64,000 nucleotides of DNA, taken from NCBI GenBank assembly GCA_027036135.1, contig JALVSY010000007.1, forward strand, positions 810,880-874,879. Direction: 5' to 3'. The notes below the pieces were generated by a model, which was not told where the DNA came from, searched no databases, and saw nothing but the letters and a program-made list of their open reading frames with translations. Positions 9,829-28,204 of this stretch are shown piece after piece. This DNA is from Pyrodictiaceae archaeon (GTDB lineage: Archaea; Thermoproteota; Thermoprotei_A; Sulfolobales; Pyrodictiaceae). The first letter of the stretch is position 1. The number at the start of each line of letters is the position of its first letter. Both the position numbers and the translations under genes were made by a program.

Positions 9829-9891
9829 ATGCCAAGAGGCAATAGACTTAGAATACCTTCTCCGGGAAACGTATGCTTACACCTGGGGTGA
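9829..9891 (+). other. Possible 20-codon leader ORF upstream of aIF1A
   Basis: ATG at 9829 opens 20 codons ending in the TGA that lies inside the GGGGTGA ribosome site of the next gene. A TATA-like stretch near 9784-9794 would start transcription just upstream of this ATG. Stop and ribosome site overlapping is typical of coupled translation, but the peptide shows no recognisable family and may be chance. Confidence 0.25.
9885..9891 (+). promoter_or_regulatory. Ribosome binding site GGGGTGA for CTG-started aIF1A
   Basis: GGGGTGA complements the 16S 3' end as do the GGTG motifs before most genes here. It lies eight bases before CTG 9899, the usual spacing in this window, and 55 bases before the first TTG, so it supports the CTG start. 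Confidence 0.6.
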
Positions 9892-9898
9892 AGAAGCC

Positions 9899-10240
9899 CT
9901 GGCAAAGAAGAAGCGGAGACAAGAGGAAGAGAGCAAGAAAGAACTATTGTTACCGAACCCCGAGGAGGGTACAATGCTATGCGTAATCACTAAGATACTT
10001 GGAGCAGACCATGTACTTCTGCGATGTCAGGACGGTGTTGAGCGGAAAGCCAGGATTAAGGGCAGCATGAGGAGAAGGGTCTGGATGAGAGAGGGAGACA
10101 TAGTCCTTGCCGCGCCCTGGGACTTTAAACCGGATAGAGCTGATATAATTCATCGCTATACTCGCGACGAGCTAAAAAGATTAGTAGAAATGGGCATAGT
10201 CTCGGAAGAGCTACTGGAGTTAGCAGAGGAGCTAGCATAG
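9899..10240 (+). CDS. Translation initiation factor aIF1A (CTG start)
   Basis: OB-fold initiation factor that helps the 30S subunit scan and bind initiator tRNA. The core is unmistakable: CQDGVERKARI, MRRRVWMREGD, and a C-terminal helix after APWDF. The first ATG/GTG/TTG would start at TTG 9947 and delete the basic N-terminal tail. The frame upstream reads Leu-Ala-Lys-Lys-Lys-Arg-Arg-Gln-Glu-Glu, a typical aIF1A tail, and begins at CTG 9899 right after GGGGTGA. No other start codon exists in this stretch. That gives 113 aa, family length. Followed by RIO1 and a Pno1-like protein. Confidence 0.93.
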   Translation: MAKKKRRQEEESKKELLLPNPEEGTMLCVITKILGADHVLLRCQDGVERKARIKGSMRRRVWMREGDIVLAAPWDFKPDRADIIHRYTRDELKRLVEMGIVSEELLELAEELA

Positions 10241-10275
10241 GTATCAGAGAAAACCAAGATGCTTGCTCTTTTTGC

Positions 10276-10281
10276 GGGGTG
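10276..10281 (+). promoter_or_regulatory. Ribosome binding site GGGGTG for CTG-started RIO1
   Basis: GGGGTG ten bases before CTG 10292. The only in-frame alternative start, ATG 10376, has no comparable motif. Confidence 0.55.
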
Positions 10282-10291
10282 CAAGTAGGCC

Positions 10292-11098
10292 CTGGGTAGG
10301 CGTCGTAGAGAGAAGCGGCTTAAGGACAAGGATCTTTTTGAAACAGTCGAAGAGGTCTGGGACGCACAGACCCTTATGGCCGCCTACGAGGTAATGAGGC
10401 GGCTGCGCCTCGATAGATTCGCTGGCGTCGTGAGCGCCGGTAAAGAGGCGAGAGTATACAGGGCAATAGGGCGTGACGGCACTGAGTACGCTGTTAAGAT
10501 CTACCTAACAGCTACAGCCGAGTTCCGCAAAAGCATATACAAGTACCTCCTAGGTGACCCAAGGTTCCAGAACGTTGACGTGAGTAACACTAAGAAATTA
10601 TTCGCGGCATGGGCCCGTAAAGAGTTCCGCAACCTTAAGAGAATGTACGAGGCTGGTGTAAGTGTTCCTAGGCCTTATCTAGTCTATCAGAACATAATAG
10701 TTATGGAGTTTATAGGTAGAAACGGGCTCAGAGCACCACTTCTACACGAGATACAGAACAAGCTAGACACCGACGAGGCAGAGGAAATCTATTGGCAAGT
10801 AGTCAATAACTATAGGAGGATTTATTGCTGCGCAAAACTAGTCCACGCCGACATGAGCGAGTACAACATAATGCTCCTAGATAACAAAGTCTATATAATA
10901 GACGTGGCCCAGGCTGTTAGCCTAGAACACCCTAACGCAAGCGACTTCCTCCGCAACGATGCACGTAACATATCCAGGTTCTTCTCCAAGCTAGGCGTTA
11001 CGAGCGCAAATAGCCCCGAACAAATACTCAAAGAAATAACTTTATGCGAGAACATAGAGTGCCCGGAGCCTAGGGAGAAGAAAGCGGGAAAGCAATAA
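10292..11098 (+). CDS. rio1: RIO1-type serine/threonine protein kinase (CTG start)
   Basis: Atypical kinase that acts in late 30S subunit maturation. Seen: the flexible P-loop motif SAGKEARVY, invariant Lys in YAVKIY, catalytic HADMSEYNIM, and metal-binding IIDVAQAV. ATG 10376 would truncate the conserved N-terminal segment that precedes the ATP loop (ETVEEVWDAQTL). The frame runs back to TAG 10286-10288 with only one usable codon, CTG 10292, placed ten bases after GGGGTG. This gives 268 aa. Part of the aIF1A-RIO1-Pno1 group, probably one transcript. Confidence 0.93.
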   Translation: MGRRRREKRLKDKDLFETVEEVWDAQTLMAAYEVMRRLRLDRFAGVVSAGKEARVYRAIGRDGTEYAVKIYLTATAEFRKSIYKYLLGDPRFQNVDVSNTKKLFAAWARKEFRNLKRMYEAGVSVPRPYLVYQNIIVMEFIGRNGLRAPLLHEIQNKLDTDEAEEIYWQVVNNYRRIYCCAKLVHADMSEYNIMLLDNKVYIIDVAQAVSLEHPNASDFLRNDARNISRFFSKLGVTSANSPEQILKEITLCENIECPEPREKKAGKQ

Positions 11099-11140: not shown

Positions 11141-11761
11141 ATGGAGAGCAGAGAGCAAGTAAGACAAGCAAAGAGCTACGCAATGCCGCCTAGCCTCCGC
11201 CTCTACGCAAAGATACCGCCAGAGAGAATAGGCGTACTCATAGGTGAAGGAGGAAAGGTAAAAACAGAGGTTATGCGCAGGACAAGGACAAGGATAACCG
11301 TTGATAGCACTACCGGGATGGTCATTATAGAGCCAGAGGCACCAGACGTAACACCATTCATGGTGATGAAGGCCCAGGAATTCGTGAAAGCAATAGCATA
11401 TGGCTTTAGCCCGGAAAGAGCCATGAGGGTTCTCGACGAGGATCAAATACTAGTCGTTATAGATCTAAAACAGCACGTAGGCGATAGCCCTAATCACCTC
11501 CAGAGAATCAAGGGGAGAATAATCGGGGAGAAGGGGAAAGCTAGGAAAACCATAGAGGAGATGACTGGCACATACATATCGGTTTACGACCACTACGTAG
11601 CGATAATAGGTGACTACGAGACAGCAAACATAGCTAAACAAGCCATAGAGATGCTAATACAAGGCAGGCAACACAGCACAGTATACAGGTTCCTTGAACG
11701 GGCTATGTTCACGCTGCGTAGAGAGCGAATGACACGACTATGGGAGAAACCTTACCCCTAA
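11141..11761 (+). CDS. KH-domain ribosome-assembly protein (Pno1/Dim2 family)
   Basis: Archaeal homologue of Pno1/Dim2, which binds the 3' end of small-subunit rRNA. Two KH domains are visible, with GxxG loops at GEGGKVK (about residue 32) and GEKGKAR (about 130). 206 aa is normal. ATG 11141 follows a purine-rich GGGGTG...AAGGAG stretch. Adjacent to RIO1, which in the known pathway works on the same pre-30S particle. Confidence 0.9.
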   Translation: MESREQVRQAKSYAMPPSLRLYAKIPPERIGVLIGEGGKVKTEVMRRTRTRITVDSTTGMVIIEPEAPDVTPFMVMKAQEFVKAIAYGFSPERAMRVLDEDQILVVIDLKQHVGDSPNHLQRIKGRIIGEKGKARKTIEEMTGTYISVYDHYVAIIGDYETANIAKQAIEMLIQGRQHSTVYRFLERAMFTLRRERMTRLWEKPYP

Positions 11762-27415: not shown

Positions 27416-28204
27416 TCAATGATTAAGCCAGTAGGAAACAACATCACTTCTATCGACTACACCAATAAGTTTCTTATCATCACCAACTATGTATACCCTA
27501 CCTATATCGCGCTTAAGCATCAACTTAGCTGCATCAAGCAATGTGTGACTTTGGCTCAGGGTTATAGGGGGAGTTGACATAACCTCCTGCACAAGCGGCC
27601 CTTTACGATGACTATCCGCCTCGAAATCGGGCCTAGCATACCCATGTGTTATTAGATCGTGCTCAGCAACAACACCTATTATTACCCCGTTCCTCACCAC
27701 AGGTAGCGCGGCAAATCCATAATGCCTCATTAATTGCCATACCTTGGGAACCGGTGTATCCGGCTCAACATATATGACTTCTCTCTGCATAACCTCTGCT
27801 AATGGAACAAGGAGCTTATCACGATGATTCTCCGCAATGTACTGTATAGCATTCTCGAGGCCAAACACACCCAGATATCTTGACGACTCATCAACTACCG
27901 GAGCGTACCATTCATCAAGCTTAAGCATTTTTTCTAGAGCTGAGCGTAGGTTCTGCGAAGGGCTAAGAACCATGCGCGGATGCTCCATGAGATCCTTTGT
28001 CCTTGCCTCTGTACGCGTGGCAGAGACTTCAAGCAAAGCACTTCTCTTAACTATCCCTGCGAGGCGAAGCCGACGCTCATCTGTTACTACAGGTATTACT
28101 CTTAGTCTCTGCTCACGTATAAGGCGGCGGAGACCCCCAATACTTTCATTCGGTAGAACATAGGGATACTTAGGTGAGAATAAATCAACTACGTGGGGCT
28201 CCAG
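27416..28204 (-). CDS. CBS-domain-only protein 4 (four CBS domains, CTG start)
   Basis: Starting at the first conventional codon (TTG 28036) cuts the first CBS domain in half. The frame continues upstream through a clean CBS sequence (LRRLIREQRLRVIPVVTD and LRLAGIVKRSALL) to a TAG, and only CTG 28204 can initiate it. GGTG lies six bases before that CTG. With it the protein is 262 aa and has four CBS repeats like its neighbours. TATA-like sequence lies about 45 bp upstream. Confidence 0.88.
   Translation of the reverse strand: MEPHVVDLFSPKYPYVLPNESIGGLRRLIREQRLRVIPVVTDERRLRLAGIVKRSALLEVSATRTEARTKDLMEHPRMVLSPSQNLRSALEKMLKLDEWYAPVVDESSRYLGVFGLENAIQYIAENHRDKLLVPLAEVMQREVIYVEPDTPVPKVWQLMRHYGFAALPVVRNGVIIGVVAEHDLITHGYARPDFEADSHRKGPLVQEVMSTPPITLSQSHTLLDAAKLMLKRDIGRVYIVGDDKKLIGVVDRSDVVSYWLNH

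Follow-up and report, generated by a model that had tools for sequence, protein, structure and literature searches.

In this Pyrodictiaceae genome the gene for translation initiation factor aIF1A almost certainly begins at a codon type that gene finders ignore (CTG here, ATA in a sister family). The locus raises two questions, namely whether CTG 9899 is the real start and, if so, what a weak start might do for a gene whose product participates in start-codon selection. The relevant features of the window (the whole analysed stretch of 64,000 nucleotides) are the following:

9829..9891, plus strand: upstream open reading frame of 20 codons, out of frame, with a stop that overlaps the Shine-Dalgarno motif
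9887..9891, plus strand: Shine-Dalgarno motif GGTGA, 7 nt 5' of the CTG and inside GGGGTGA at 9885-9891
9899..9901, plus strand: CTG, almost certainly the aIF1A start codon; the homologous start in relatives is ATG, GTG, TTG, CTG or ATA, and in P. abyssi aIF1A it corresponds to residue 1
9899..10240, plus strand: aIF1A gene, 113 codons plus stop; a tail of about 23 residues, then an OB fold (PDB 5jb3, 4mno)
9947..9949, plus strand: TTG, which an automatic gene finder would pick, rejected here as start (no Shine-Dalgarno motif, codon unconserved)
10292..11098, plus strand: Rio1 kinase gene, 268 codons plus stop, CTG start at 10292-10294, RIO1 Pfam domain
11141..11761, plus strand: archaeal KH-domain RNA-processing protein (Dim2/Pno1-like), ATG start, NF010328 and TIGR03665, third gene of the cluster

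The upstream neighbour of aIF1A is a nadC-type QPRTase gene on the minus strand and, because that gene is divergent, aIF1A is the first member of a plus-strand cluster composed of aIF1A, Rio1 and the KH protein. The named relatives returned for comparison were Pyrodictium, Hyperthermus and Pyrolobus species.

Within the segment 9885-9950, the motif GGGGTGA is followed by AGAAGCC and then by CTG GCA AAG AAG AAG CGG AGA, the frame of which is that of the aIF1A domain. A GGTGA-type motif upstream of the aIF1A start is kept in most relatives. The 113-residue product read from CTG 9899 (LAKKKRRQEEESKKEL...) scores above the cut-off of the aIF-1A equivalog model NF003082 and covers model positions 2-108 of 110, whereas the match obtained from TTG 9947 begins only at model position 15. 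The OB-fold eIF-1a domain (PF01176, E 1.4e-20) spans residues 24-86 and is thus preceded by 23 residues, the corresponding tail of P. abyssi aIF1A being 22 residues long (PMC5103072), and residue 3 of the CTG-started product aligns with residue 3 of the P. abyssi protein (PDB 5jb3). No in-frame ATG, GTG or TTG occurs upstream of CTG 9899 in the 35 codons back to the preceding stop, and canonical codons are likewise absent up to the upstream stop in the CTG genomes G001, G002, G011, G014 and G018; the CTG genomes G004, G005, G010 and G017 carry at least one canonical codon a few codons upstream, without a properly spaced Shine-Dalgarno motif. Moreover, leucine codons at the start position in the Pyrodictiaceae are only CTG (10) or TTG (4), never CTC, CTA, CTT or TTA, a pattern that is not due to chance because, in a sample of four genomes, CTG and TTG together account for only 17-27% of the codons used for leucine.

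That the real start lies elsewhere, at TTG 9947 or through a frameshift from ATG 9829, with CTG 9899 internal or untranslated, is what annotation programs would imply, since they would pick TTG 9947 and since the P. delaneyi annotation counts only ATG, GTG and TTG starts (PMC5556600). We nonetheless consider it extremely improbable. The genomes G001 and G002 encode an identical aIF1A protein and keep the CTG, but the position of TTG 9947 is not a canonical codon in either of them and their next canonical codon is an ATG at residue 26, where the OB fold starts; TTG 9947 lacks a Shine-Dalgarno match, and the N-terminal tail is homologous to that of solved aIF1A. The ATG at 9829 is an ACG in G002 and the reading frame that it opens is missing from G003 and G004; this frame, probably incidental judging from its distribution, was rejected as a start, directly or by frameshift, as it is not conserved among relatives. 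The combined production of a long and a short isoform was also discarded, given that the next canonical codon varies between genomes and has no Shine-Dalgarno motif.

The spacing of the GGTGA motif, the coverage of the family model, the structural alignment and the relatives therefore all agree with the earlier note, which had placed the start at CTG 9899 and had read in that frame a Lys-Lys-Lys-Arg-Arg tail upstream of TTG 9947; the outcome it had named as contrary to its proposal, a protein beginning at 9947 or later, falls on the unconserved codon without a Shine-Dalgarno motif. The contact of this basic tail with the 30S subunit, which it had presented as a family hallmark, is known for archaea in part only. 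The comparisons strongly support translation from CUG 9899, presumably by the ordinary initiator Met-tRNA, which would be placed there by the GGTGA motif.

The start of aIF1A was then read by eye in 113 genomes belonging to 11 families of the same order, yielding 51 TTG, 23 ATG, 17 ATA, 16 CTG and 6 GTG starts, so that ATG is present at just 20% of the genes and CTG or ATA at 29%. The distribution differs markedly between families. The 18 Pyrodictiaceae present CTG (10), TTG (4), ATG (3) and GTG (1), and such variation indicates that CTG itself is not indispensable. In family f3, which we take to be Ignisphaera-type and to include Ignisphaera aggregans as G021, the start is ATA in 17 of 18 genomes and ATG in the remaining one; 12 of the 17 ATA genomes have no canonical codon before the ATA back to the upstream stop, and GGTGA or a close variant lies 4-7 nt ahead of it. 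All 23 members of f11, presumably the Sulfolobaceae, use TTG, and family f9 shows TTG (14), ATG (11) and CTG (6), several of these CTG calls being less certain due to a nearby GTG or ATG. A non-ATG start on aIF1A is hence retained unusually often among relatives and, as far as alignments can establish it, constitutes a conserved weak start, a feature that appears wider than the earlier note saw.

Start codons normally change fast, as can be seen from two congeners (G000 and G004, at an aIF1A distance of 0.13) in which they differ in 37% of 140 paired genes. By comparison, the ATA clade shows no codon change over 4.3 substitutions per site of the aIF1A tree, when roughly 12.6 changes would be expected at the G000/G004 rate (P of about 3e-6); this is a rough estimate, for the yardstick comes from another family, the tree was built on 110 columns and start calls are noisy. 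The rapid turnover in the Pyrodictiaceae is what might be expected if hyperthermophile ribosomes accepted any codon near a good Shine-Dalgarno motif and start codons simply wandered. We regard such relaxed drift as very unlikely, because ATA on aIF1A coexists in a single family with ATG on all 16 aIF1 genes used as control, and because CTG starts are not above background across the genome. In the Pyrodictiaceae, admitting CTG as an extra start adds genome-wide no more genes than admitting CTC, CTA, CTT or GTA, and Shine-Dalgarno-anchored counts do not place CTG above the control codons either, although the pairwise start census is conservative and does not call aIF1A itself. The ATG starts of aIF1 (SUI1) in the Ignisphaera-type family mostly lack a Shine-Dalgarno motif, unlike aIF1A in the same genomes, which suggests that the aIF1 mRNAs of this family may be leaderless.

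The earlier note had overlooked the adjacent Rio1 gene, the CTG start of which is more conserved still. In 19 Pyrodictiaceae genomes Rio1 starts with CTG in 17, GTG in one and ATG in one, and CTG is also found in four f3 genomes; in the window, an in-frame TAG lies two codons upstream of CTG 10292, and residue 9 of the product aligns with residue 10 of solved Rio1 12ez. In G021 and G031 (L026 and L027), aIF1A and Rio1 share a frame with one TAG between them, giving frames of 382 and 391 codons. Since Rio1 is also CTG-started, the weak start is not limited to the initiation factor, and any reading that rests on the initiation factor alone is weakened. Having no role in start selection, Rio1 argues for a broader set of weak-start genes or for simple tuning of output.

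The first of these alternatives holds that a few translation-related genes have weak starts in common and would thereby respond jointly to the stringency of initiation, irrespective of the factor behind it. Besides aIF1A and Rio1, with the latter's CTG in 17 of 19 Pyrodictiaceae and four Ignisphaera genomes, candidate members are a YchF/OLA1-like GTPase in G021 (G021:C1:1196892), which has an apparent ATA start behind GGTGA as does aIF1A in that genome, and perhaps LeuRS in the Pyrodictiaceae, which lacks a canonical start and in which, in G000 and G014, a GGTGG motif is followed by ATT. These three genes of G021 (aIF1A with ATA, Rio1 with CTG and the GTPase) are among only nine, out of 159 conserved open reading frames from 400 kb, in which no canonical start lies close to the conserved N-terminus. 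We find a joint set unlikely, as the genes are few and, except for aIF1A and Rio1, mostly sighted in single genomes, and as a CBS-domain gene also has CTG. The latter gene (27419-28204, minus strand) has four CBS-domain matches (PF00571) and an apparent CTG start at 28204, preceded by a GGTG motif and by a stop, and its CTG is kept in G004 and found at the aligned position in G014. The putative LeuRS (G000:C7:401955, outside the window) is a class I aminoacyl-tRNA synthetase that its N-terminus marks as leucyl-type; no canonical start lies close to this conserved N-terminus, and in G000 and G014 the motif GGGTGG/GGAGGGTGG is followed by ATT GCT TCG. Also outside the window, another gene resembling class I aminoacyl-tRNA synthetases (G000:C7:923349), which G004 conserves, is devoid of canonical start codons in the conserved N-terminal part, where a stop is followed by CCT TCG TCC behind GGGGTG.

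Our preferred, if tentative, reading is that the weak start of aIF1A serves feedback homeostasis, an excess of the factor lowering its own synthesis. Under the proposed mechanism, the initiator Met-tRNA would begin aIF1A at CUG 9899 with a mismatch, entailing reduced output and dependence on stringency. The weak start would be a retained trait of aIF1A in this archaeal order, with CUG, AUA or UUG in place of AUG, and the mismatch at the first base (CUG, UUG) or at the third (AUA) would tie aIF1A output to the stringency of initiation. This stringency would be set by aIF1A together with aIF1, so that surplus aIF1A might repress its own synthesis much as IF3 does through the AUU of infC, and Rio1 would be a co-regulated weak-start neighbour. 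The comparative data (ATA in 17 of 18, TTG in 23 of 23 and CTG in 10 of 18 genomes) add weight to the notion of a selected weak start on aIF1A, and self-regulation through it is plausible. In P. abyssi, aIF1A cooperates with aIF1 in start selection and, when aIF1 is present, reinforces a dynamic, non-committed complex, which is the sign needed for negative feedback; when aIF1 is absent, the complex is more stable (PMC6237735). In yeast, on the other hand, the eIF1A tail favours weak sites (PMC5756025), which would result in positive feedback instead, and toeprints in S. solfataricus reveal no clear effect of aIF1A (PMC11698992). Also seemingly at odds with feedback are the plain ATG of aIF1, the best-known discriminator of weak codons, and the more conserved CTG of Rio1, which selects no starts.

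Weak starts might otherwise merely fix a low ratio of aIF1A, and of Rio1, to ribosomes, without any feedback and with any weak codon sufficing. This would fit the variation of codon type between families and within the Pyrodictiaceae, as well as the same trait in Rio1, which is not an initiation factor; it fits less well with the single codon kept unchanged in the Ignisphaera family and in the Sulfolobaceae, even though the Shine-Dalgarno motif and other elements could tune the level. Because the P. abyssi and yeast data are opposed, we rate feedback homeostasis as a real possibility somewhat short of an even chance, and plain output tuning as somewhat less likely.

Bacteria already provide an example of an initiation-factor gene with a weak start, namely infC, which codes for IF3, starts with AUU in E. 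coli or with ATC in Streptomyces and is autoregulated by IF3 (PMC5472188). It is infC, and not eukaryotic eIF1, that by analogy appears as the closest parallel. Both infC and aIF1A are initiation-factor genes with a conserved near-cognate start other than ATG, GTG or TTG behind a Shine-Dalgarno motif (for aIF1A, CTG in 10 of 18 and ATA in 17 of 18 genomes of the respective families), both are often misannotated and both products participate in start-codon selection. The proteins, however, are unrelated, aIF1A being an IF1-type A-site factor and aIF1 the IF3-like one; furthermore, the aIF1A codon is CUG or AUA, its neighbour Rio1 has the same trait and its feedback is putative. The earlier note had turned instead to eIF1, which in yeast (SUI1) is likewise autoregulated through start-selection stringency, eIF1A tail mutations affecting it (PMC5756025). 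That comparison is not the best, since eIF1 relies on an AUG in poor Kozak context and on long-range scanning, whereas the aIF1A start is a CTG placed by a Shine-Dalgarno motif and the archaeal homologue aIF1 has ATG in the Ignisphaera family (16 of 16). Streptomyces sigR resembles aIF1A in its rare start codon (GTC, repressed by IF3), which serves there for regulation by initiation fidelity, but it is bacterial and not an initiation factor (PMC5472188). Closer in phylogeny, an ATC start has been proposed by comparison for the translation gene L12ae of the related crenarchaeon Staphylothermus marinus, a case that concerns one gene in one genome (PMC2678158).

In a limited literature search, which is no proof of absence, we found no earlier description of archaeal aIF1A or Rio1 genes that start with CUG or AUA. 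To our knowledge, reviews of archaeal start codons mention only AUG, GUG and UUG. If the present assignments are true, the family-wide AUA of aIF1A and the near-universal Pyrodictiaceae CUG of Rio1 would enlarge the archaeal set, account for truncated gene models without the basic tail and suggest that bacteria and archaea independently came to subject a start-selection factor to the stringency that it helps to set. It can be conjectured, with less assurance than feedback at aIF1A itself, that archaea own an infC-like feedback in which aIF1A retains CUG, AUA or UUG in several families so that its synthesis depends on initiation stringency, and Rio1 and a few other translation genes respond to the same signal.

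Finally, both CTG starts of the cluster (9880-9904 and 10270-10296) lie within the pattern GGGGTG...GCCCTGG, in which the Shine-Dalgarno motif can pair with the start region at 37 C. The hairpin predicted for aIF1A at 37 C is gone at 90 C, where the aIF1A leader is predicted to be open and that of Rio1 marginally stable (-1.2 kcal/mol), and the aIF1A hairpin is thus unlikely near growth temperature. Most CTG aIF1A genomes of the Pyrodictiaceae have CC directly before the CTG.
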